This document shows positions 14,012-29,264 of a stretch of DNA of 64,000 nucleotides, piece by piece. Both the position numbers and the translations under genes were made by a program. The notes below the pieces were generated by a model. That model was not told the DNA's origin. It searched no databases and worked only from the letters and a program-made list of their open reading frames with translations. How positions within the stretch are numbered: the stretch's first letter is position 1; the number at the start of each line of letters is the position of its first letter. The stretch is from assembly GCF_000444995.1 (NCBI RefSeq), contig NC_022041.1, positions 3,041,501 through 3,105,500 on the forward strand. Direction: 5' to 3'. This stretch comes from Paracoccus aminophilus JCM 7686 (GTDB lineage Bacteria > Pseudomonadota > Alphaproteobacteria > Rhodobacterales > Rhodobacteraceae).

Positions 14012-14088
14012 GGACCCGTAGCTCAGCTGGATAGAGCATCAGACTACGAATCTGAGGGCCGGGCGTTCGAATCGCTCCGGGTCCGCCA
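14012..14088 (+). tRNA. tRNA-Arg (anticodon ACG), copy 1
   Basis: 77 nt with acceptor GGACCCG/CGGGTCC, anticodon stem TCAGA/TCTGA with loop CTACGAA, T-arm and encoded GCCA end. The ACG anticodon would be converted to ICG and read CGU, CGC and CGA. It is identical to the copy at 14295. Confidence 0.96.
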
Positions 14089-14254
14089 TTTCCTCCCCCC
14101 TCAAACCACACTTCGCGCAGCATCCTTTTGGTGCTGCATTCGCCTGTGCGACCACCCTTTCGGGGCGTCACGGCTGTCGCATTCGCCTGCGCCGCCCCCT
14201 TCCCGAAAAAGCGTATCCGGGCGCGAAATGTCACCAAAATGTTGCAGGATTCGC

Positions 14255-14283
14255 TTGCGCCCGCCAGCGCCACGCACTAGACA
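14255..14283 (+). promoter_or_regulatory. Promoter of the second tRNA-Arg
   Basis: TTGCGC (14255-14260) and TAGACA (14278-14283), 17 bases apart, precede the second tRNA at the same distance as in copy 1, so each copy appears to have its own promoter. Confidence 0.6.
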
Positions 14284-14294
14284 CAGCGCCATGC

Positions 14295-14371
14295 GGACCC
14301 GTAGCTCAGCTGGATAGAGCATCAGACTACGAATCTGAGGGCCGGGCGTTCGAATCGCTCCGGGTCCGCCA
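14295..14371 (+). tRNA. tRNA-Arg (anticodon ACG), copy 2
   Basis: Identical 77-nt copy of the tRNA at 14012. The 206-base spacer between the copies contains no gene that I can support; a small hairpin GCAGCA/TGCTGC lies at about 14116-14137. Confidence 0.96.
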
Positions 14372-16806: not shown

Positions 16807-18063
16807 TCAGGCCTTTTCAAGATCAAATGCATCATGCAGCGCCTGCACCGCAAGTTCCATATACTTGCGGTCGATCAGCACCGAAATCTTGATCTCCGAG
16901 GTGGAGATGACCTTGATGTTGATGTTCTCATCGGCCAGCGCCTTGAACATCCGCGCCGCGACGCCTGCGTGCGAACGCATGCCGATGCCGACGACCGAGA
17001 CCTTGGCGACCTCGGAATCGACGACCAGCTCGTCATAGGCGATGGTGCCGGCGGCTTTCGCCTCTTCCATCGCCTTCTTGGCGCGGGCGACCTGATTGAC
17101 CGGGCAAGAGAAGGTCATGTCGGTCACCGAACCCGGGTGATCGTCATAATCCTTTTCCGAGATGTTCTGGACGATCATATCGACGTTCACGCCAGCATCG
17201 GCCAGAGGCGCGAAGATCGCGGCCGAGATGCCCGGCTTATCCTCGACAGTGACCAGCGTGATCTTGGCTTCTTCGCGCGAATAGGCGACGCCGCTTACGA
17301 CTTTCGATTCCATGATTTCATCCTCATCGCAGACCAGCGTGCCCGACATCTCGTCGGTTTCCTCGAAGGACGAGAGCACGCGCAGGCGGACGTTGTAACG
17401 CATTGCCAGCTCGACCGAACGGGTCTGAAGCACTTTCGCCCCAAGGCTGGCCAGTTCGAGCATTTCCTCGAAGGCAATCTTTTCAAGCTTGCGCGCTTTC
17501 GAGGTGATGCGGGGATCGGTGGTATAGATGCCATCGACATCGGTGTAGATGTCGCAGCGATCAGCCTCGAAGGCGGCGGCAAAGGCCACGGCGGTCGTAT
17601 CCGAGCCACCCCGGCCAAGCGTGGTGATGCGGCCCTCGGGCGAGAGGCCCTGGAAGCCCGCGACCACGGCGACCTTCATGCCCTCGGCGAATTTCGCGTC
17701 AAGGTTGGTGCGCGGAATGTCGAGGAAGCGCGCCGAAGAGTGCTGCGCGGTGGTGTGGATCGGCACCTGCCAACCCTGCCAGCTGCGCGCCGGAACGCCC
17801 ATTTCCTGCAAACGCAGCGCCATCAGACCCGCGGTGATATTCTCACCCGAGGCGACGACCGCGTCATATTCACGCGCATCGAACAAGGGCGAGGTCTGCT
17901 CGACCCAGCCCACCAACTCATTTGTCTTGCCAGACATGGCGCTGACGATAACAATGACGTCGTAACCGCGATCAACTTCACGCTGCACTTTTTGGGCGGC
18001 GTTTTTGATACGGTCCAGATCAGCGACAGAAGTGCCGCCGAATTTCATCACCAGAAGCGGCAT
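16807..18063 (-). CDS. lysC: Aspartate kinase
   Basis: Phosphorylates aspartate, the entry step to lysine, threonine and methionine. MPLLVMKFGGTSV opens the amino acid kinase domain, GRGGSDTTAVA lies near residue 150, and two ACT domains occupy the last about 150 residues (VEDKPGISAAIF and VGIGMRSHAGVAARMF), so feedback inhibition by end products is expected. Length 418 aa. The ATG at 18063 is fixed by the conserved N-terminus even though the frame stays open upstream. It is co-transcribed with ptsP. Confidence 0.96.
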   Translation of the reverse strand: MPLLVMKFGGTSVADLDRIKNAAQKVQREVDRGYDVIVIVSAMSGKTNELVGWVEQTSPLFDAREYDAVVASGENITAGLMALRLQEMGVPARSWQGWQVPIHTTAQHSSARFLDIPRTNLDAKFAEGMKVAVVAGFQGLSPEGRITTLGRGGSDTTAVAFAAAFEADRCDIYTDVDGIYTTDPRITSKARKLEKIAFEEMLELASLGAKVLQTRSVELAMRYNVRLRVLSSFEETDEMSGTLVCDEDEIMESKVVSGVAYSREEAKITLVTVEDKPGISAAIFAPLADAGVNVDMIVQNISEKDYDDHPGSVTDMTFSCPVNQVARAKKAMEEAKAAGTIAYDELVVDSEVAKVSVVGIGMRSHAGVAARMFKALADENINIKVISTSEIKISVLIDRKYMELAVQALHDAFDLEKA

Positions 18064-18199: not shown

Positions 18200-18745
18200 T
18201 CAACGCACCCGCAGCGCGGTCGGATCAAAGCCCGCCAGCGCGCTCGGGTCCAAGGCGACCGGGCGGCCATCGCGGCGCAGGCCGCAGGGATAGAGCCCAG
18301 CCTCATAGGCCGCGAAAACCCGTTCCAGCAGCGGCTCGCCCTTTTTGCCCAACACAAAGCGCGCCAATGCCACAGATTGCAGGGTTTCGAGGATGTCATA
18401 AGCGACCGTGGCCCAGAACGCCTCAAAGGGCGTGATGGTCTTGCGGATCTTTTTCTTGTTCAGCTCGCGCTGGAACTCTCCACGCGCGTCCCAAACCTCT
18501 TCGCCTTCGGGTTCGATGAGCGCGCGCCCGGCTTGACCCTCAGGGGTCGCATAGAAAGGGGACACTGCCCCCTCAAGCGCGTCGCGCCAGATCGCATAGC
18601 CGGCCGGCAGCTCCTGATCGTTCTCAAACTGCATCGCGCGCTCAAGATCGTTGATGACCTCGCAATCGGCGACGCCCCCGTGACCCGAGAGCAAATTTGG
18701 GCTCAGGAAAAATCGCACCGGAGCAAGAACGAAATCGTCATCCAT
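18200..18745 (-). CDS. Putative Rhs immunity protein, second copy
   Basis: 181 residues, about 89 percent identical (161 of 181 by eye) to the product at 20005-20550. I do not recognise a named family. Shared features are FVLAPVRFFL at the N-terminus, LPAGYAIWRDALEG, a basic ELNKKKIRKTITPF segment and a C-terminal AGLYPCGLRRDG; no signal peptide or membrane segment. The start at 18745 is chosen because similarity between the copies begins exactly there. Last gene of the Rhs-immunity run, 50 bases after the SMI1-like gene. A duplicated or orphan immunity role is inferred from position, not from a known domain. Confidence 0.7.
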   Translation of the reverse strand: MDDDFVLAPVRFFLSPNLLSGHGGVADCEVINDLERAMQFENDQELPAGYAIWRDALEGAVSPFYATPEGQAGRALIEPEGEEVWDARGEFQRELNKKKIRKTITPFEAFWATVAYDILETLQSVALARFVLGKKGEPLLERVFAAYEAGLYPCGLRRDGRPVALDPSALAGFDPTALRVR

Positions 18746-18795
18746 GACGCTGCTGCCCTGCGGTTGCATCGCGTCCTGACCGGCTGTGGCGCGGG

Positions 18796-19242
18796 TCAAA
18801 CGGTCTCAAGAAACCTCTGCCAATCGTCCGGGGGGAGCTCTGGCGCAAGGGCCGCATAGCGGCACGCCTCGACGCAGGCGGCCAGAAGGTCATCGAGATC
18901 GCCCAGGGCTTCAAGCGCATCATTCTCACCCACAAGCGCCGTAGAAGACCCGCTCCGCGACATCACGATCGGCACGTAAAGCACCTGCCCGATGATGACC
19001 CATTCCGCCGCATCCTCAAGACCGCGCAAGCGATAGGCGTGCCCTGCCAGCGCCGCCTGCGGGAAGAGGTCAATCCGCCCGAACATCCCACCATCCGCCA
19101 CGCGCAAAACCGCATCATAAGCCGTCGATCCCGAATGCGCGCTCGGATTACCCGTTGCGATCTCGCCGAAGGTCGGGCCAAGCGGGGCGCTGAGCAGCCT
19201 GTCGCGCAAGAGGACGAACCGCGCGGCCAGCTCTGGCGTCAT
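18796..19242 (-). CDS. SMI1/KNR4 (SUKH)-like putative immunity protein
   Basis: 148 residues, cytoplasmic. The core VLRVADGGMFGRIDLFP is the DGG-containing strand-turn typical of SMI1/KNR4 (SUKH) proteins, followed by an aromatic WVIIGQV segment and an alternating acidic C-terminus. SUKH proteins are the most common immunity fold in contact-dependent and Rhs toxin systems. AAGGAG lies six bases before the ATG. It follows the SUKH-4-like gene by 39 bases. Which toxin it neutralises is unknown; it may protect against a toxin encoded by competitors or by a lost Rhs tip. Confidence 0.68.
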   Translation of the reverse strand: MTPELAARFVLLRDRLLSAPLGPTFGEIATGNPSAHSGSTAYDAVLRVADGGMFGRIDLFPQAALAGHAYRLRGLEDAAEWVIIGQVLYVPIVMSRSGSSTALVGENDALEALGDLDDLLAACVEACRYAALAPELPPDDWQRFLETV

Positions 19243-19281
19243 GCTGTCTCCTTGAGGTTTCCAGTGCCGTTTTCGACTGGA

Positions 19282-19851
19282 TCAGTCTTTCCACAACCGT
19301 CCGGCGCGGGCGTATTCGACCGAGGGCGTCACGATCTGAACCTGAAGCTCTTCGATCAGAAAGGCCATCTGCGGCCAGAAGGCGCCGTCGGCGGCGGCCT
19401 CCGGGTCTTGGCCCTGCACGCGGTCGAGAAACGCGCCCGAGATCCGGATTGCCGCGGGCCCAAGATCATCAAACTGCGCGCGCAGCTCGAAAAGGCTGGC
19501 GATGAACCAAGAATAACAGCGCAGGAAATTGTCGAGATCCGAATTCACGAAAGCCGTCAGCGCGCCGAAAACCTCCTCGTCCTCGGCGGCAATCACGCGA
19601 ATGCTGCCGTCCTTGGCTTCGACCAAGGGCCCATAATCGCAGGTCCCGAAAATCTCACCGCTCAAGGTCTCCGAGGTGATCGCGACCTTTTCATCGGGGA
19701 AGCGGACGAAATGAAACTTCGTCAATGGATCATCGGCGAGAAACTTCAGCCGATCGTTTTCGAGATCCTTCAGCGACAGTTTCTCCGGCGCGTGCCGGGT
19801 CGTCGCAAAGCCAAGCGCCCGCATCTGCTCAAGCAGCTTCTCAGAAATCAC
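19282..19851 (-). CDS. SUKH-4-like putative immunity protein
   Basis: 189 residues with the pattern of the SUKH-4 family: a central strand-rich region (GEIFGTCDYGPLVEAKDG) followed by the helix FVNSDLDNFLRCYSWF and a C-terminal helical part. The start is a GTG at 19851 with GAGGAA six bases upstream; the frame is open further but codes unlikely sequence there. It lies between the two 181-residue paralogs in the immunity cluster, 153 bases after the first. The function as an immunity protein is inferred from fold and context. Confidence 0.7.
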   Translation of the reverse strand: MISEKLLEQMRALGFATTRHAPEKLSLKDLENDRLKFLADDPLTKFHFVRFPDEKVAITSETLSGEIFGTCDYGPLVEAKDGSIRVIAAEDEEVFGALTAFVNSDLDNFLRCYSWFIASLFELRAQFDDLGPAAIRISGAFLDRVQGQDPEAAADGAFWPQMAFLIEELQVQIVTPSVEYARAGRLWKD

Positions 19852-20004
19852 GGCGTTCCTCGCAATGCATCCAGCGTCGATTTTGCCGGGAAGGAGATGA
19901 GGGTTACATCCTACACTCCGATGCCGACCTTCCCTTCCTTGCATCCATCGCGCCGCAACTGTGTTCCAAGGACCGGCTCTGATCTGGGTGAGCAAAAGTC
20001 GCCG

Positions 20005-20550
20005 TTACGAGACTTTCACCACCGCGGGATCAAAGCCCTCAAGCGCGCTTGGGTCCAAAGCAACCAGCTGGCCATCACGGCGCAGGCCGCAGGGATAGAG
20101 CCCGGCTTGATAGGCCTCGAAAACCCGTTCCAGCAGCGGCTCGCCCTTTTTGCCCAACACAAAGCGCGCCAATGCCACAGATTGCAGGGTTTCGAGGATG
20201 CCATAAGCGACGGTATTCCAGAACTCTTCAAAGGGCGTGATCGTCTTGCGGATCTTTTTCTTGTTCAGCTCACGCTGAAACTCTCCGCGTGCGTCCCAAA
20301 CCTCTTCGCCCTCCGGTTCGATGAGCGCCCGCCCGGCTTGCCCCTCAGGGGTCGCATAGAAAGGGGACACTGCGCCTTCAAGCGCGTCGCGCCAGATCGC
20401 ATAGCCGGCCGGCAGCTCCTGATCGTTCTCAAGCTGCATCGCAAGCTCAAGATCGCGGATGACCTCGCAATCGGCGACGCCCCCACGACCCGAGAGCAAA
20501 TTTGGGTTCAGGAAAAACCGCACCGGCGCGAGAACGAAGCCCTCATCCAT
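20005..20550 (-). CDS. Putative cognate immunity protein of the Rhs nuclease
   Basis: 181 residues, starting five bases after the Rhs stop codon, the normal position of the cognate immunity gene. It is predicted cytoplasmic, as needed against a nuclease toxin. The family is unknown to me; features are described for its paralog at 18200. The ATG at 20550 is supported by conservation between the two copies; the longer frame to 20589 would overlap the Rhs gene. Differences between the copies concentrate at the ends and at scattered surface-type residues (for example FEEFWNT against FEAFWAT), as expected for changed specificity. Confidence 0.75.
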   Translation of the reverse strand: MDEGFVLAPVRFFLNPNLLSGRGGVADCEVIRDLELAMQLENDQELPAGYAIWRDALEGAVSPFYATPEGQAGRALIEPEGEEVWDARGEFQRELNKKKIRKTITPFEEFWNTVAYGILETLQSVALARFVLGKKGEPLLERVFEAYQAGLYPCGLRRDGQLVALDPSALEGFDPAVVKVS

Positions 20551-20555
20551 ATCCG

Positions 20556-23500
20556 TCAAAACCCTGCCTTGGTCAAAATATCGCTCCAATAGGCATTTGC
20601 CCGCGCGGTCCCGGTCTTGGTGCCTCCGGGAGTCACGCTGCCAATCCAGTCCGAACTGCGGATCGGAACGCCGTTCATTTGATTCTGGCGCAGAACATTT
20701 TGCAGGCGCTGGATCTCGGACGCAACATGCTGAGGTCCAAGCGACAGATCGATCCGGTTCATGGCCGCCTCGACGGCATCATTATAGCCTTTGTGGCTGC
20801 CCTGATGTCGCGTGAGTGGGCTGACGCGATCCGCGTTGCTGGCGCTGTTTGCGCCGCGATCGGGCAGGAACATGCCATTGCCTGCCCCGTCGATGTCTTG
20901 ACCGCCCATCCGCCAAGCCGGGTGATTGTCGAGCGCGCCCGGAATGACGTGCTGCGCCTGATAACCGGGCGCGCGGGTACCGCGCGGCATTCCCATGTCG
21001 TCCATCAGATTGGCGCGCAATTTGTCCGAGCAGCCTTTCAACCCCAAAGGATCGACCCAGCCGTTCGGGTCGGCGACATAGCCTTGCGGGCGGATGCCGC
21101 CCAGAAGGCCTATCGGGTCGGGTGACAGATATTGCGTCGCATCGGGGTCGTAATAGCGCTGGTTGTTGTAATAGAGCCCGCTTTCCTCATCCGCCCATTG
21201 CCCCTGAAAGCGGATCGGCAGCGGATCGGGGGCGTGATCGTCATTCGCGGCCGTGGGACGCGGGGCGAGCGGCTCGACTTCGCCCCAAAGCGAGAGCTCT
21301 TGGCGCCAAAGCACTGCCGCGCCGTCTTCGGCGAAAAGCTCGCGCGGGGTGCCGATATGGTCGGTGACGACATAGTGCAGATCATCACCCACCGCGCGCG
21401 CCATTGGCCGGTGCGAGCCCGGCTCGTAGAGCCAATGCGCGGCGTGCTCCCAATCGGCGCCCTCTGGGCCGAGCGGCGCCTCGGCGATGATCTGCGTGCC
21501 TTCCCAATGATAGGCGCGCCCGCCGCCTTCGGGGATATAGCCCGGCGCGGCCTTGTCCTCGCGCCCGCCCGCCATCAGCTTCAGCCGCTGAACCCGGCGC
21601 CCCACGGCGTCATAGATATAACGCCAAACCGCGCCCTCGGGCGTTTCCAGCCGCACGAGCTGGCCCTGCCCGTTCCAGCCCATGCGCCAGATTTTCGGGC
21701 GGAAACCGGGCTCGTCCAGACGCTTTTCAACGACACGGCCCGCCGCATCATGGCGATAGGAGATCTTGCCGCGCTGGCGGACGCGACCGGCGTCCTGCAC
21801 CAGTTTTTCCTGCCCCATCGCGGTCGCGATCTCGGTCAGGTTCTGGTTCGGGTCATAGCCGAAGCGGCTGAGGCTCGCGCCCTCGCCCCGCGCGGTCTGG
21901 CGCGAGACGCTGACGACCTGCCCGCGCGGATCATGTTCGAAGCGCTTTTCGCCGGTGATGCGGTCGTTAACCGAGATCGCGCGCTGCGCCCGGTCCCAGA
22001 GATAGGTGCGATGGGCCAAAGCCCCGGCACGGGTGATATGCTCGTTCTGCCGCCCCCCGGTCAGCACGCCGAACCGCACCTCATCGGGCAGCGCCGAGAG
22101 CGGCCCTGCGATCTGCTCGACCATGAGGCCAACGGCATCATAGCCCTGTGCCAAGGCAAAGCCCGCCTGCGTGCTGCGCATGATCTCCAGCCCACGCGGG
22201 TCATAGGCAAAGGACAAGGCCTCATGCTGGCCGAGTTGTAGCTCGGAGAGCTGCCCGGCAAGGTTATATTGCGCGGCGAAGGGCAAGGCATCGCCCCGGC
22301 GCGCGGTCCGGCCAGGCTCTTCGCCCGCGTAATCGGACAGGATCTCGCGGCCATTCTGAGACTCGCGGATGATCCGGCCCATCGCGTCATAGCTATATTC
22401 GATCGCACCCTCGGCGCTGACCGCGCGGATCAACCGGCCAAGCGCATCATAGGCGAAGGTGGTTTTCGACAGCTCTGCGCCGCGCTGGACCACCATTTCG
22501 ATCATGCGCCCGCTGGCCGAGCGGGTGTAGCGCCGGATCGCGCCATCGGGCAGCACGCTTTGCGCCAGCCGACCGGCGGCATCGTAGTGATAGCGCGTCA
22601 CCAGCCCCGCATAATCCCGCTCGGCGGTGATGCGGCTGCAGGCGTCATAGCCGATCTCGTAGCGCTCGCCCTTCTGGTTCACGAGCGCGGTCAGCCGCAA
22701 GAGCGCGTCATGCTCGGTCTTCACGCTATGGCCGTTTTCGTCGATGATCTCTTCGCAAAGATCGAAGGCGCCGAAACGATAGCGCCGCCGCGCGCCCTCG
22801 CCATTGACCGCTTCGGCCAGCATGCCTTCGCTGTCATAGCTGGCCTCTGCGGTGATGCCATTCGCCAGCGTCACGCTGCGGATGTTGCCGCGCGGATTGT
22901 CCGGGCCGCGTTGATGGTCCCAGCGCGTTTCCCCGCCGATCTCGTCGGAAAACCGCACGAGCCGCCCCTCGCCGTCAAAGCGCATATGCTGCTCGAACCC
23001 GGCCGCCGTGCGCAGCATCCGGGGGCGCTGCAACATGTCATAGGCGAAGCGCTCTTGCCGCCCGCCGGGATAATCGATGCGCAGAACCTGCCCGGTTTCG
23101 AGCCTGCGGAAGCGGATGAAACTGCCGTCGGGCTGCTCGACCGAGCCCAGATTGCCGCTGGTGTCATAGCGGAAGACATGGCTGTGACCGGCCTTGTCGG
23201 TGTGGGACTGGATGCGGCCCGAGAGCGTATAGCTCCAGCTTTCGCTTGCGCCTTCGGGATCGGTGATGCGGATCAGATCGCCCCAGCGGTCATAGTCGAA
23301 GCGCGTGACATTGCCGAGCGGATCGGTGTTCGACACCACATTGAGATGGCGCCCCCATTCGGTCAGCCACTCGCCGCCCAAGGGGTCGATGCTGCGCCAG
23401 ACGAGGCCCTGATCGTTCCAGTCGTAACAGGTGACAGCGCCGCTTGCATCGGTCATCACCGTGCGCTTGGCGGCCAGATCATAGGCGAATTCGGTGTTGA

Positions 23501-25391
23501 GATGGCCCGAGGCCGTCCAGTTGCGCGCCACCCGCCCATCGGGGCCGTATTCGTAATGCGCCTCGGTTCGGCCGGTATCGGCCCAGCCGGTCAGGCGCTC
23601 TTGCGCGTCATAGCTGTAGCGCAGTGTCCCGGTCTGGGCCGAGATCGCTTCGGTCAGGACATTGCGGTCGGTATAGCTCCAGACGAAACCGCAATCCGCG
23701 CTGTCCGGCGCATTCAGCACGGCGCGGCGGATCACCATGTCACGGCTTTCGACCGAGAGGCTGAAGCCATCAGAATGGCGCAGCTCGTGCAGGCCGCTCT
23801 CGTTGTAGATCAAGTCGATGCGGTTGCCGTTGCGATCCTCGATGCGCGAGAGCAGACGCCGCGCCTTGCGGCTGTGATCAAAGATCCAGAAGATCTGGCG
23901 GTGGCGGTCATAGACGTAAAGCGAGCCCGAGCGCTCGCCGGCAAGCGTCAGATGCGGAAAGCGGATATTGCCAGCATCGACCCCGTCTTCGGGCGCATGA
24001 AACGAGATCAGCACCCCGTCTTCGTCCTGATAGGCGATCTCTTCGCCGTTGAGCCGCAGATGCTGGGCCCAAGTCCCCGCCCAATGGCGGCCCTGCACGC
24101 CCTCGGCCCCGGGGCGATAGCTGCGCTTCAGAACCAGCGGGATCGTGCCCGGAATGGCGATATCGGTGCGGGTCTCGAAGACTTGGCCGGTCGCGACATC
24201 GACCGGGTCGCCGCCGGTCGTGCAATTCTCGTTGGGCTTGCCCTGATTGCCCTCGGCCTCGGTGCGCTTCGGGTTCGGGCCTTTGTCGGGATCGCCACCG
24301 GGCTTGGGTTTCGGCGGCGTACCATCTTCGCCGGGCTTGGGGCGCGGAGCCTCGTCATGGGGATGGGGCTTTGGCTTCGGCGGGCCGTTCACATCGGGCT
24401 TGGGCTTTGGATGCGGCCCGTTCGGATGATCGCCCTTGCCGCCCTTCGGGATCGGCAGAAGATCGAGCAGTGCAAGCCCGGTGCGCACGCCGCGCTCGGC
24501 CCAGCCGCCGTCGATATCCATGCGGATCGCGCTGGTGTCGAGGTCGATCGCGATGGTCTTGCAGCCGTCGTTGATCTTGCCGCTGCAGGTCGTCATATGG
24601 CCGATGCGGGCGATCGGCCAGTTGTTGGCAAAGACCGTCTTCGCGCCCTCGGCGACGAATTGCGGGCCGCCATGCTCGGTGCAGGCCACCAGATCAGTGA
24701 CCCGCGCCACCGGCTTGTTCTGGAAATAGACATTGGGCGATCCCTTCATGATCAAGCCCTTGTTCTTGCCATATTGCCCGGCCGCCGAGGCAAAGCCCAT
24801 GCCAAGCCCGCCGACAAAGCCTGCCGCGAGACCTGCCGCCGCGACCACGAGAAGCGTCGCCGTGCCTGCCGAGGCGATGATGATCGCGGCCACAGCCACC
24901 GCCGCGACCGCGCCCAGAACCATCGCGCCCAGAACCGCCCATTTGTTCACATGGGCGATGGGATGGCCGACGGTCGCGGGCATCTCGCCCTTGTCAACCA
25001 TGCGCTGATAGCCAAAGGCCGAGCCGATCGTGCTCATCGCGAGATGGCCAAGGCCCTCGCCCAGGAAAGAGCCGACGGCCCCGCCAACAATCCCCGCGCC
25101 AAGGCCGACCGCCGCCGGAAGCGCCGCAGCCGCCGCCGCCGCGCCGGTCGCGCCAAGCGTCGCACCACCGGCAGCGGCGCCCACGCCTGCCACCAGCCCC
25201 GGCAGCACGACCGAGCCCACCATGACCGTATTCTGGACGCCCTGGCTTTCGACCACGTCCAGCGCATCGTCCCAGCCCGCCTCGAATTCCGAGCGTCCGG
25301 TCTGGTCGGGAAAGACCCGGCCGTCGCTGTTGCCCGCTCCGCGATGCGAGAAGCCTGCCCCTGCGGTCGCGCCGATGATCATTCCGCTCAT
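20556..25391 (-). CDS. PAAR-Rhs polymorphic toxin with C-terminal AHH-like nuclease (T6SS effector)
   Basis: 1611 residues. Two hydrophobic regions (about 53-110 and 151-205) precede a PAAR domain (about 215-282) that would cap the VgrG spike. A Pro/Lys-rich linker (about 320-385) leads into the Rhs/YD repeat shell (about 395-1440), which ends in the aspartyl autoprotease motif with repeated DPxG and DPLGL at about 1447-1451. The released tip is the last 160 residues; it contains YQAQHVIPGAL and HQGSHKGYNDAV, the layout of the AHH group of HNH/endonuclease VII nucleases, but with AQH instead of AHH. I infer a DNase delivered to rival cells. The start lies four bases after eagR. Confidence 0.92.
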   Translation of the reverse strand: MSGMIIGATAGAGFSHRGAGNSDGRVFPDQTGRSEFEAGWDDALDVVESQGVQNTVMVGSVVLPGLVAGVGAAAGGATLGATGAAAAAAALPAAVGLGAGIVGGAVGSFLGEGLGHLAMSTIGSAFGYQRMVDKGEMPATVGHPIAHVNKWAVLGAMVLGAVAAVAVAAIIIASAGTATLLVVAAAGLAAGFVGGLGMGFASAAGQYGKNKGLIMKGSPNVYFQNKPVARVTDLVACTEHGGPQFVAEGAKTVFANNWPIARIGHMTTCSGKINDGCKTIAIDLDTSAIRMDIDGGWAERGVRTGLALLDLLPIPKGGKGDHPNGPHPKPKPDVNGPPKPKPHPHDEAPRPKPGEDGTPPKPKPGGDPDKGPNPKRTEAEGNQGKPNENCTTGGDPVDVATGQVFETRTDIAIPGTIPLVLKRSYRPGAEGVQGRHWAGTWAQHLRLNGEEIAYQDEDGVLISFHAPEDGVDAGNIRFPHLTLAGERSGSLYVYDRHRQIFWIFDHSRKARRLLSRIEDRNGNRIDLIYNESGLHELRHSDGFSLSVESRDMVIRRAVLNAPDSADCGFVWSYTDRNVLTEAISAQTGTLRYSYDAQERLTGWADTGRTEAHYEYGPDGRVARNWTASGHLNTEFAYDLAAKRTVMTDASGAVTCYDWNDQGLVWRSIDPLGGEWLTEWGRHLNVVSNTDPLGNVTRFDYDRWGDLIRITDPEGASESWSYTLSGRIQSHTDKAGHSHVFRYDTSGNLGSVEQPDGSFIRFRRLETGQVLRIDYPGGRQERFAYDMLQRPRMLRTAAGFEQHMRFDGEGRLVRFSDEIGGETRWDHQRGPDNPRGNIRSVTLANGITAEASYDSEGMLAEAVNGEGARRRYRFGAFDLCEEIIDENGHSVKTEHDALLRLTALVNQKGERYEIGYDACSRITAERDYAGLVTRYHYDAAGRLAQSVLPDGAIRRYTRSASGRMIEMVVQRGAELSKTTFAYDALGRLIRAVSAEGAIEYSYDAMGRIIRESQNGREILSDYAGEEPGRTARRGDALPFAAQYNLAGQLSELQLGQHEALSFAYDPRGLEIMRSTQAGFALAQGYDAVGLMVEQIAGPLSALPDEVRFGVLTGGRQNEHITRAGALAHRTYLWDRAQRAISVNDRITGEKRFEHDPRGQVVSVSRQTARGEGASLSRFGYDPNQNLTEIATAMGQEKLVQDAGRVRQRGKISYRHDAAGRVVEKRLDEPGFRPKIWRMGWNGQGQLVRLETPEGAVWRYIYDAVGRRVQRLKLMAGGREDKAAPGYIPEGGGRAYHWEGTQIIAEAPLGPEGADWEHAAHWLYEPGSHRPMARAVGDDLHYVVTDHIGTPRELFAEDGAAVLWRQELSLWGEVEPLAPRPTAANDDHAPDPLPIRFQGQWADEESGLYYNNQRYYDPDATQYLSPDPIGLLGGIRPQGYVADPNGWVDPLGLKGCSDKLRANLMDDMGMPRGTRAPGYQAQHVIPGALDNHPAWRMGGQDIDGAGNGMFLPDRGANSASNADRVSPLTRHQGSHKGYNDAVEAAMNRIDLSLGPQHVASEIQRLQNVLRQNQMNGVPIRSSDWIGSVTPGGTKTGTARANAYWSDILTKAGF

Positions 25392-25395
25392 GCTG

Positions 25396-25824
25396 TCAGC
25401 TCCGTCGTGGCTGCAGGTTCAAGGTCGAGACGATGCGGCGGACTTCGGTCTGCTGCGAGGGCGTCATCGCGCCCGGCACCGAAGCGGTGATGACCATGGC
25501 CCGGTTGTCGGCAAGCTGGATCGTGGTGATGATCTGGTGGATCGGGCCCTGCTTGGCCTTCCAGCTGCATTCGATTTCATAGGCGGCTGCGCGGCTGAGC
25601 GTCGCGGGCTTGCGCCCCATCAGCTTGAATTCGTCGAGCGCATCCTCGATCTGCTTGATCTGATCCTCGACATATTCGGAAAAGCCCATGCCCCAAGGCA
25701 GGGTGTCGCGGGTGATCGAGACCGTCAGCCCCGGCTCCATCGCCGCCGTGCTCGAGATCACATTGATCGTCTGATCTTTCCAGCTGTCAGGAAGATCGAG
25801 AGTACCTTCATTGAAGACAAACAT
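25396..25824 (-). CDS. EagR-type chaperone (DUF1795/DcrB family)
   Basis: 142 residues, no signal peptide. The N-terminal LPDSWKDQTINVIS and the TRDTLPWGMGFSEYVEDQI segment match the DUF1795 fold of T6SS effector-associated chaperones, which bind the transmembrane region of Rhs effectors before loading onto VgrG. Its place between vgrG and an Rhs gene with N-terminal hydrophobic segments is exactly where such chaperones occur. The start overlaps the vgrG stop by one base (TGATG). Confidence 0.88.
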   Translation of the reverse strand: MFVFNEGTLDLPDSWKDQTINVISSTAAMEPGLTVSITRDTLPWGMGFSEYVEDQIKQIEDALDEFKLMGRKPATLSRAAAYEIECSWKAKQGPIHQIITTIQLADNRAMVITASVPGAMTPSQQTEVRRIVSTLNLQPRRS

Positions 25825-27854
25825 CAGGCGGTGGCGTCCTTGTTGAGATGAATCATGCCCGCCATCTGATCGAGGATTTCCTTGGTCAGCGTGACCTGTG
25901 TGGCCCCGCAGCGCAGCACGATCTGTTCAGGCGTGATCTCGATCACGGAATCCGGGGTTTCGCCCTTGCCGACGCCAAGCGTGATGCGCTCGACCGCCTT
26001 ATGGGTCGCGACCTTGCCCGCATCGTTGATGATGTTGTCGGTCGCGCGCAGGCTGAAGCTTTTCTTGGTGTCCTGCTCGATGTTGTTATGCGCGTTGTGG
26101 CGGATGAATTGCTCGGCGGTCAGCTCGAAATTGTCCTTGGCGAAATACGAGATATTCCCCGCCCCGCCCGCGCCGCCCTTCGCGGTCTCTTTGATCGCGG
26201 TCGCGGTGACCGCACGCACCAGCGCGATGTCCTCGGTCAGATTGCCCGCATCGAGCTTCTTGCTCTCGTCGCCCGCCACGATGCGCACCTTGCGATCGCC
26301 GCGATTGACCTGTGTGCTTTCGTTGTCCTCGATGACGCGGTTCATGTCCTTCTCGGCATGAAGGAAGATCTCTTCGATGCCTTGGGCATCCTCGAACATC
26401 AGCTCGTTCGACCCGCCGCCCATATGGGTCTTGGTCTTGAAGCCCGAACGGGTCTTGTTGGCCGGAAGCCCGTAGATATTGGCATTCGAAGCGTTGACCA
26501 CGCAGCCGGTGACCAGCGGCTTGTCGGGATCGCCGTCAATGAAATCGACGATCACCTCCATGCCGATGCGCGGGATGACGACCTGACCGAGCCCCGCCCC
26601 GGCCCATTGCTGGCTGACCCGGCAGCGCATCGAGATCGCGCCATCGAGATCCCAGTGAAAGCGCACCAACACCCGACCATATTCATCGCAATCGATTTCG
26701 CCGTCGCCGACGACAATGGCGGTCTGCGGGCCCTGCACCACCGGAACCGGGGTTTGACGCGGCGGCGCATAGGGCGCCGAGGCGGGCATCAGGACGTAAG
26801 AGCCCGAATAGGAATAGCCATTCGATTCCGACCCGCCCGAGCCATAGCTTTCGGAGACGAAGCTGTGATGGGAGGCCAGACAGACCTGCCGCGGCTCGCC
26901 CAGGTTCGAGATCCCCTCGGCCTCGACGGTGACGATCATACCCGAGCCAAGCGAGATGCAATCGCCCGCCGCCCGCGTCCGGCGATCATCGCCCTGAAAC
27001 TGGTCGTTGCGGATGCGCGCGATCTTGCGGCCCTCTTCGCGGTCGAGATAGACGCCGGGATATTCATAGCTTTCCAGCGCGCCGAACGCATGTTTGGCAC
27101 TGCCCATCCGCTCGGCCAGCATCTCGGCGCGCGGCGTCTTGAAGTTGTAGTCGATCAGCCGGACCGCGCCGGTCTTGATCTTGCGATCGGGGGCAAGGTC
27201 CCAGAAATGCTCGGCATCGGGCTGGTGGTGGCCATCGACCGGCTTGAACTTGCGGCTGCCGCCGACGATGTCCTTGAGGCTGGTGTCGCTGTCGGTCAGC
27301 ACCATGCGATGATTTCCGAACTCGTGCTCGAAGTGATACGAGATGCCGAAGCGCTCCATCATCCGGCTGGCGAAGGCAAAATCGCTTTCGCGGTATTGGA
27401 CGGTATATTCCAGCACCGGATAATCGCCCTCGAGCTTCAGTTCGAGCGCAGGCTTGCCCGCCCCCTCATAGGGCGCGAGCACCTCTTTGACGATCTTGTC
27501 GACGGTCTTGTTGTGGAAGATCTTCTGGTTGAAGCGCTGATCTGCCAGCCAGAACCACGGGCGCAGCGACAGATTGAAGCGATAGCCGTTCTCTTCGGCC
27601 CCGGCATAGCGCGCGCGGGTGACGATCCCGTCGAAATGGCGCGGCCCAGAGCGGGTATCGACCGTGACCGTGGCATGGGTGCCCAGCAGCGCGTCGAAAT
27701 CGACGCCCGGATCGGACGACAGCGCTTCAACCTCGTAGTCAAAGAGATTGTTCATGAAATCCGCGCCGAAGAAACGCAGCAAGACCAGCGACTCGGGGCC
27801 CAGAACCGTATCGAGACGGCCCAGCCGCGCGTCCTGTTTGAATGACATGTTCAT
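25824..27854 (-). CDS. vgrG: Type VI secretion spike protein VgrG (TssI)
   Basis: 676 residues. The gp27-like base starts around LVLLRFFGADFMNNLFDYEVEA, and the gp5-like OB domain is seen at YGRVLVRFHWD and CRVSQQWAGAG around residues 390-430. The IPRIGMEVIVDFIDGDPDKPLVTGCVVN block and the C-terminal beta-helix are complete, and there is no extra effector domain. The start at 27854 (MNMSFKQ) follows a GGAGAGG-containing leader. It heads the vgrG-eagR-rhs-immunity operon. Core T6SS genes must be elsewhere in the genome. Confidence 0.95.
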   Translation of the reverse strand: MNMSFKQDARLGRLDTVLGPESLVLLRFFGADFMNNLFDYEVEALSSDPGVDFDALLGTHATVTVDTRSGPRHFDGIVTRARYAGAEENGYRFNLSLRPWFWLADQRFNQKIFHNKTVDKIVKEVLAPYEGAGKPALELKLEGDYPVLEYTVQYRESDFAFASRMMERFGISYHFEHEFGNHRMVLTDSDTSLKDIVGGSRKFKPVDGHHQPDAEHFWDLAPDRKIKTGAVRLIDYNFKTPRAEMLAERMGSAKHAFGALESYEYPGVYLDREEGRKIARIRNDQFQGDDRRTRAAGDCISLGSGMIVTVEAEGISNLGEPRQVCLASHHSFVSESYGSGGSESNGYSYSGSYVLMPASAPYAPPRQTPVPVVQGPQTAIVVGDGEIDCDEYGRVLVRFHWDLDGAISMRCRVSQQWAGAGLGQVVIPRIGMEVIVDFIDGDPDKPLVTGCVVNASNANIYGLPANKTRSGFKTKTHMGGGSNELMFEDAQGIEEIFLHAEKDMNRVIEDNESTQVNRGDRKVRIVAGDESKKLDAGNLTEDIALVRAVTATAIKETAKGGAGGAGNISYFAKDNFELTAEQFIRHNAHNNIEQDTKKSFSLRATDNIINDAGKVATHKAVERITLGVGKGETPDSVIEITPEQIVLRCGATQVTLTKEILDQMAGMIHLNKDATA

Positions 27855-29190: not shown

Positions 29191-29264
29191 GGTGGGTTGG
29201 CGGAGAGGTTACGCACCGGATTGCAAATCCGTGAAGACCGGTTCGATTCCGGTACCCACCTCCA
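29191..29264 (+). tRNA. tRNA-Cys (anticodon GCA)
   Basis: 74 nt, acceptor GGTGGGT/ACCCACC, anticodon loop TTGCAAA, T-arm CCGGT/ACCGG-type pairing and encoded TCCA end. Confidence 0.96.

Follow-up and report, generated by a model that had tools for sequence, protein, structure and literature searches.

Gene content of the locus

We analysed a stretch of 64,000 nucleotides from Paracoccus aminophilus JCM 7686 (contig NC_022041.1, positions 3,041,501 to 3,105,500; hereafter the window, whose own numbering is used below) and characterized an effector locus of the type VI secretion system (T6SS) at positions 18200-27854. On the minus strand, the order of transcription is vgrG, a gene for a DcrB/EagR-type chaperone, a gene for a PAAR-Rhs effector, and four small genes, immA, immB, immC and immD (Table 1); DcrB-like chaperones go by the name EagR. 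An earlier note made from the sequence of the window had described these genes as packed in one direction. Indeed, all of them are present and open on the minus strand, the reading frames of the four imm genes included. The start of vgrG was placed at ATG 27854, inside a longer open reading frame (ORF).

Table 1 Features of the Rhs locus in the window and of its borders
Feature	Positions	Strand	Basis
vgrG (T6SS spike, TssI)	25824-27854	-	TIGR03361 E 3.7e-144; Phage_GPD, Gp5_trimer_C, Phage_base_V
DcrB/EagR-type chaperone	25396-25824	-	PF08786 E 1.4e-41, whole model covered
PAAR-Rhs effector, 1611 aa	20556-25391	-	PAAR 2.4e-16, DUF6531, RHS repeats (YD) 1.2e-57, RHS, Rhs_assc_core, AHH
C-terminal AHH nuclease tip (predicted), 160 aa	20556-21038	-	PF14412 E 2.9e-17, after DPxGL boundary motif
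immA, predicted cognate immunity (Imm24-like features)	20005-20550	-	starts a few bases past the Rhs stop
Spacer, 153 nt	19852-20004	-	no recognised gene or toxin remnant
immB, SUKH-4 orphan immunity candidate	19282-19851	-	PF14435 E 2.3e-19; GTG start, longer TTG ORF to 19995
immC, orphan immunity candidate, family outside Pfam	18796-19242	-	gene order in relatives; weak SUKH-like fold matches
immD, orphan copy of the immA type	18200-18745 (alternative ATG 18769)	-	amino-acid identity to immA, tree
lysC (aspartokinase), inner boundary of insertion	16807-18063	-	genus matches, synteny
tRNA-Cys, outer boundary of insertion relative to two relatives	29191-29264	+	ARAGORN

The Rhs effector and its predicted nuclease tip

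The effector gene has the parts of a specialised PAAR-Rhs effector: a PAAR domain, an Rhs/YD core, a DPxGL boundary, which is found as PNGWVDPLGL directly before the tip, and a variable C-terminal toxin. It is linked to vgrG and to the EagR chaperone gene, and T6SS machinery is encoded elsewhere in the genome. The tip scored 63.1 bits against the AHH family PF14412 (curated cut-off 22.3), and an Asn, two His and a Tyr were invariant in the alignment of its homologs. The residues listed for Tox-AHH toxins are [AG]HH, N, H, H and Y (PMC3482391); the window tip has counterparts of N, H, H and Y, and its AHH motif reads AQH, with the first His replaced by Gln, as it does in three Paracoccus homologs. 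DNase activity was shown for another AHH effector (PMC10902643). Among 125 genomes of the genus, one per species, AHH tip matches were found in seven, P. aminophilus included, and two of these were weak.

Families, folds and constraint of the immunity genes

Since immA and immD are near-copies, with 89.4% amino-acid identity over 180 residues and 91.4% nucleotide identity over 524 nt, the four genes represent three sequence families, probably in two fold classes; no credible similarity was seen in any other pair. The earlier note had counted four candidate immunity genes, all of which are indeed intact, and had overlooked the likeness of these two. Its proposal of two unrelated folds holds at the superfamily level only, and on weak models, with immA and immD mostly helical, immB a SUKH-4 member and immC weakly SUKH-like. 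The array consists of structurally different, putative immunity genes in tandem, of three unrelated sequence families with differing predicted folds.

The profile search of each product that the same note had called for assigned immB to SUKH-4 (PF14435; 70.6 bits, cut-off 25.5; profile positions 2-176 of 179), using the longer ORF that reaches 19995. For immA, immC and immD, no match was found in Pfam, NCBIfam, PHROGs or PADLOC, and none of eight immA family members had a significant Pfam match. The predicted structure of ImmC gave weak matches to SUKH-like (SMI1/KNR4-like) folds. The ImmA model is mostly helical with a C-terminal beta hairpin and is of low confidence (mean predicted local distance difference test score 64.7, residues 155-181 below 50); the motif PCG (P153-C154-G155) near the C-terminus is invariant in all eight alignment rows. 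In this motif and in its AHH partner ImmA is like Imm24 of the Tox-AHH/SHH toxins, for which a PxG motif (x mostly C) is described (PMC3482391); Imm24 is also described as chiefly helical and ending in a hairpin, which the low-confidence model of ImmA may share. Alphaproteobacteria lie outside the range listed there for Imm24.

In a tree of ten sequences, immA and immD were sisters (support 98/95). Their divergence was dN 0.061 and dS 0.30 by the NG86 method and dN 0.064 and dS 0.27 by YN00, where dN and dS are nonsynonymous and synonymous substitutions per site. The resulting dN/dS of about 0.2 (codon bootstrap 0.12-0.33, 300 draws) shows that the pair stayed constrained. Of the 20 amino-acid differences, seven polarise to immA, four to immD and nine are ambiguous; of 41 columns with no variation among the remaining rows, immA deviates at two and immD at four, and no sign of decay was seen in immD. 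The dS of lysC to seven relatives is 0.48-0.77, above that of the immA/immD pair, so that the two copies probably diverged in this species or near it, with the reservation that lysC may be a slow yardstick. The block shared by immA and immD does not extend beyond the genes: in shuffling tests of the two flanks, 134 and 105 of 200 shuffled sequences scored at least as high as the real alignment.

Layered cassettes behind the Rhs genes of relatives

The search for immA homologs covered 101 of the 125 genomes and found them in eight, including P. aminophilus itself. In five of these eight the homolog adjoins an AHH tip or its remnant. It stands directly behind an AHH-tipped Rhs gene that is open to its end in the window, in a Paracoccus metagenome-assembled genome (G081) and in P. 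cavernae (G031), where the immA homolog itself is split over two frames. In two further genomes (G063 and G053) it stands behind an AHH remnant, which is itself behind a newer cassette. In Paracoccus sp. DMF-8 (G063), whose Rhs and vgrG genes were called in pieces, the order is an Rhs gene with another tip, the downstream gene of that tip, a degraded gene, an AHH tip reduced to its last 48 residues and an open immA homolog; the degraded gene resembles, by eye, an Imm26-like gene of G053. The latter genome has an Rhs gene with yet another tip, this Imm26-like gene (Pfam E 0.074, below the cut-off), a second tip starting from PLGL, other ORFs, a third tip of the AHH type and the immA homolog; the AHH tip is whole with one stop, and the immA homolog has two.

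In the other three genomes no such tip adjoins the homolog. In P. binzhouensis (G084) and on a plasmid of Paracoccus sp. TOH (G094), the genes behind an Rhs gene with a different tip are, in order, an immC homolog, a degraded gene that is Imm26-like by eye, and the immA homolog, which is a fragment in the latter. Homologs of immC occur in three of the 125 genomes, and in both genomes other than the window's they stand directly behind the Rhs gene, with the immA homolog downstream. The Rhs tip before them bears DHVHE, a sequence consistent with DHxxE, the signature of the Tox-HNH-CIDE clade (PMC3482391); Pfam was silent on the tip of P. binzhouensis. Rhs tips at L025:10104-10547 and L030:11080-11523 carry a DHVHELQLNG motif that is HNH-like by eye, and a scan of the L025 tip alone gave no significant Pfam or PDB sequence match.

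In P. aminovorans (G048; L026), the immA homolog is the last gene of a longer array, part of which is masked. The Rhs gene ahead of this array has an AHH tip of another kind (PF14412 E 2.7e-13), and the array contains a second tip remnant and the immA homolog, along with genes that by eye are transposase-like, SUKH-like and Imm26-like. Behind the immA homolog of G081 stands a further small gene (L027:13526-14047), with no Pfam match, that matches 27 residues of ImmD at 48%. Matches to immB were found in two of the 125 genomes, and the T6SS structural protein VipB was found in all seven other Paracoccus genomes with an immA match.

Judging from these gene orders, tips in the relatives are replaced at the Rhs core, with old immunity genes persisting behind, sometimes with tip remnants. 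When the orphan genes of the window were compared with immunity genes of toxin pairs elsewhere, the immA type was matched, immC was matched at 26-27% identity, and none was found for immB.

Outside the genus, immA homologs with 48-49% identity were seen in Croceibacterium xixiisoli (L042:7998-8543), directly behind a gene that by eye encodes a ParA-like ATPase and with no Rhs match in 16.5 kb, and near a contig end in Altererythrobacter sp. C41 (L041:375-905). Neither genome had a VipB match. It is possible that these sphingomonad homologs are stand-alone acquired immunity genes.

Origin of the array

We propose that the array probably consists of layers left by successive tip replacement, in the order A-B-C-A', in a T6SS auxiliary module with an AHH tip and its cognate ImmA. 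VgrG and the EagR chaperone would load and deliver the PAAR-Rhs shell, whose AHH-type (His-Me finger) DNase tip would cut target DNA, and ImmA, encoded directly downstream, would neutralise this tip in the producer. ImmB, ImmC and ImmD would be orphans of earlier tips. At each replacement, made at the conserved Rhs core, the new tip-immunity cassette would have removed the old tip and left the old immunity gene standing behind it. The order outward from the toxin (A, B, C, A') would then run from youngest to oldest: an AHH-type layer (immD) would have been followed by an HNH-like tip (immC), by a tip with SUKH-4 immunity (immB) and by the AHH-type cassette of today, a second uptake from a close relative rather than a local copy. 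The retained immunity genes would protect against kin that still carry older tips. The suggestion of the earlier note that the extra genes have to do with the swapping of Rhs ends is supported by the relatives, where the immA/immD and immC families hold cognate-type and orphan positions behind Rhs tips; its other suggestion, protection against several tips, is plausible.

Several points weigh against such a history. No toxin remnant was recognised between the immunity genes of the window, and the 153-nt spacer, searched as a 159-base query, matched its own genome alone among the 125. The similarity of immC to homologs with a known toxin neighbour is only 26-27%, and the single other match to immB in the genus (30%) lies on a 5.9-kb contig with no Rhs gene recognised among its called ORFs. 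Of the five AHH-linked cases, two rest on genomes of lower completeness in which frames are split (P. cavernae, 79% complete, and Paracoccus sp. DMF-8, 84%), and with one genome per species the comparison covers species, not conspecific strains. Since Gln replaces the first His of the AHH motif in this tip, as in three homologs, its nuclease activity is likely but not certain.

The sister position of immA and immD also counts against repeated replacement, as it would be expected if one of the two genes had been copied locally from the other and immB-immC had come in between them from another locus as a ready-made pair. The two genes are mutually closest in the ten-sequence tree, sister clustering was named as a mark of duplication by Kirchberger et al. 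(PMC5361080), and in other immunity families tandem copies recombine with one another and so grow in number (PMC9484751). However, the homology of the two ends at the gene ends, though at dS 0.3 a duplicated flank should still show, and the relatives do carry layered toxin-immunity cassettes behind their Rhs genes, so we regard local duplication as unlikely. Still less probable, in our view, is that immB, immC and immD were gathered singly for protection, independent of the toxin history of this Rhs gene. Heterogeneous polyimmunity loci have been described, with related polyimmunity proteins usually lacking toxin neighbours (PMC3482391), and the homologs in Croceibacterium, away from Rhs, and in Altererythrobacter, near a contig end, both in genomes with no VipB match, would fit such a store. 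Against it, members of both the immA and the immC family are placed behind Rhs tips in Paracoccus, at times with tip remnants. That some of the four genes are unrelated cargo, as the lack of any Pfam, NCBIfam, PHROG or PADLOC match for immC might suggest, is very improbable: the immC homologs stand directly behind an Rhs tip in both other genomes of the genus that carry them, immB belongs to an immunity family, and immD is a constrained copy of immA.

Successive tip replacement could be taken one step further, though this extension is rather doubtful. The array might record a cycling of toxins, from an AHH tip through at least two other tips and back to the same AHH type, with the old AHH immunity gene kept under constraint as an immunity memory that enabled the return. 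The immA family would be an undescribed branch of AHH immunity, not in Pfam, that also circulates on its own, as an acquired defence, among sphingomonads in which no T6SS was detected.

Comparison with known immunity arrays

The earlier note had ranked the locus as the strongest candidate for an undescribed system, which does not stand, as such loci have been published as polyimmunity loci (PMC3482391), as arrays formed by sequential displacement (PMC5361080) and as orphan Rhs immunity genes (PMC3150448, PMC10539506). In Vibrio cholerae, T6SS immunity gene arrays arise by sequential effector displacement (Kirchberger 2017, PMC5361080); as in the window locus, orphan immunity genes of other types come after a single effector-immunity pair, and the same type can be repeated in one array. 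The partial effector remnants reported there are likewise found in the Paracoccus relatives, whereas none was recognised in the window, and the part displaced is the effector gene or the vgrG effector region in V. cholerae and the Rhs tip here.

Orphan rhs-CT/rhsI modules were described by Poole 2011 (PMC3150448), and one orphan Rhs immunity protein was shown to protect in a study of Serratia Rhs1 (PMC10539506). As in these two reports, tip and immunity gene would be exchanged at the DPxGL boundary, with immunity genes of other tips kept downstream; the toxin families differ. Heterogeneous polyimmunity loci (Zhang 2012, PMC3482391) similarly have structurally different immunity genes in tandem, often including SUKH, whereas the genes of the window are just four and are attached to an open T6SS Rhs gene.

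A literature search, judged by title and with most subscription papers outside it, found no description of such an array in Paracoccus. The layout is thus already known in other bacteria, and its notable detail is that the nearest and the farthest immunity genes are of the same type; a modest novelty lies in the apparent return to one toxin type and in an immunity family absent from Pfam. The comparison extends the displacement model to Paracoccus Rhs loci, with intermediates visible as tip remnants directly before immunity genes in two relatives, and it links two immunity families that Pfam lacks with their likely toxin classes, AHH for immA and an HNH-like tip for immC. If A-B-C-A' does mean that one toxin was taken up again, re-arming may be easier where orphan immunity genes serve as an immunity memory, and they could be investigated in that role.

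Genomic setting of the module

The window locus is an auxiliary effector module, and the T6SS of the genome sits on another contig. VipB is present in one copy, on contig C4 (206,583 bases), close to a ClpB/ClpV-type ATPase, TssG, TssF, a gp25-like TssE, Hcp, VipA, an ImpA-like protein and an FHA protein. Also around it are an IcmF-type TssM, a DotU-OmpA TssL, a VasE-type TssK, TagF and a protein kinase. The earlier note's remark that the window has no T6SS structural genes agrees with this for VipB, found on C4 only; other structural genes were seen on C4, and for each of these no separate scan of the window was made. Three vgrG matches were found in the genome, the window copy included. Another vgrG lies in L116:4242-12248 (G000:C1, ~2.012 Mb), where it is followed by two genes with no Pfam match, unscanned genes and a gene for a Tox-PAAR-like protein (PF13665); this is probably a further effector module of the same T6SS.

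The distance between lysC and tRNA-Cys is 11.1 kb in the window, where the module lies between them, 200 bp in G097 and about 1 kb in P. cavernae. tRNA genes were sought in four of eight stretches compared, and the two besides those of G097 and P. cavernae showed no tRNA-Cys. The alpha/beta hydrolase gene between module and tRNA-Cys has one close counterpart, in G066 (66%, E 1.4e-118), the next best match being at 33% (E 1.7e-19), and lysC has a match in 124 of the 125 genomes. Because the interval is short in two relatives, the hydrolase has one close counterpart and lysC is found nearly throughout the set, the lysC to tRNA-Cys interval looks like accessory DNA. Elsewhere in the window, two tRNA-Arg(ACG) genes stand in tandem on the plus strand (14012-14371), 283 bp from start to start.

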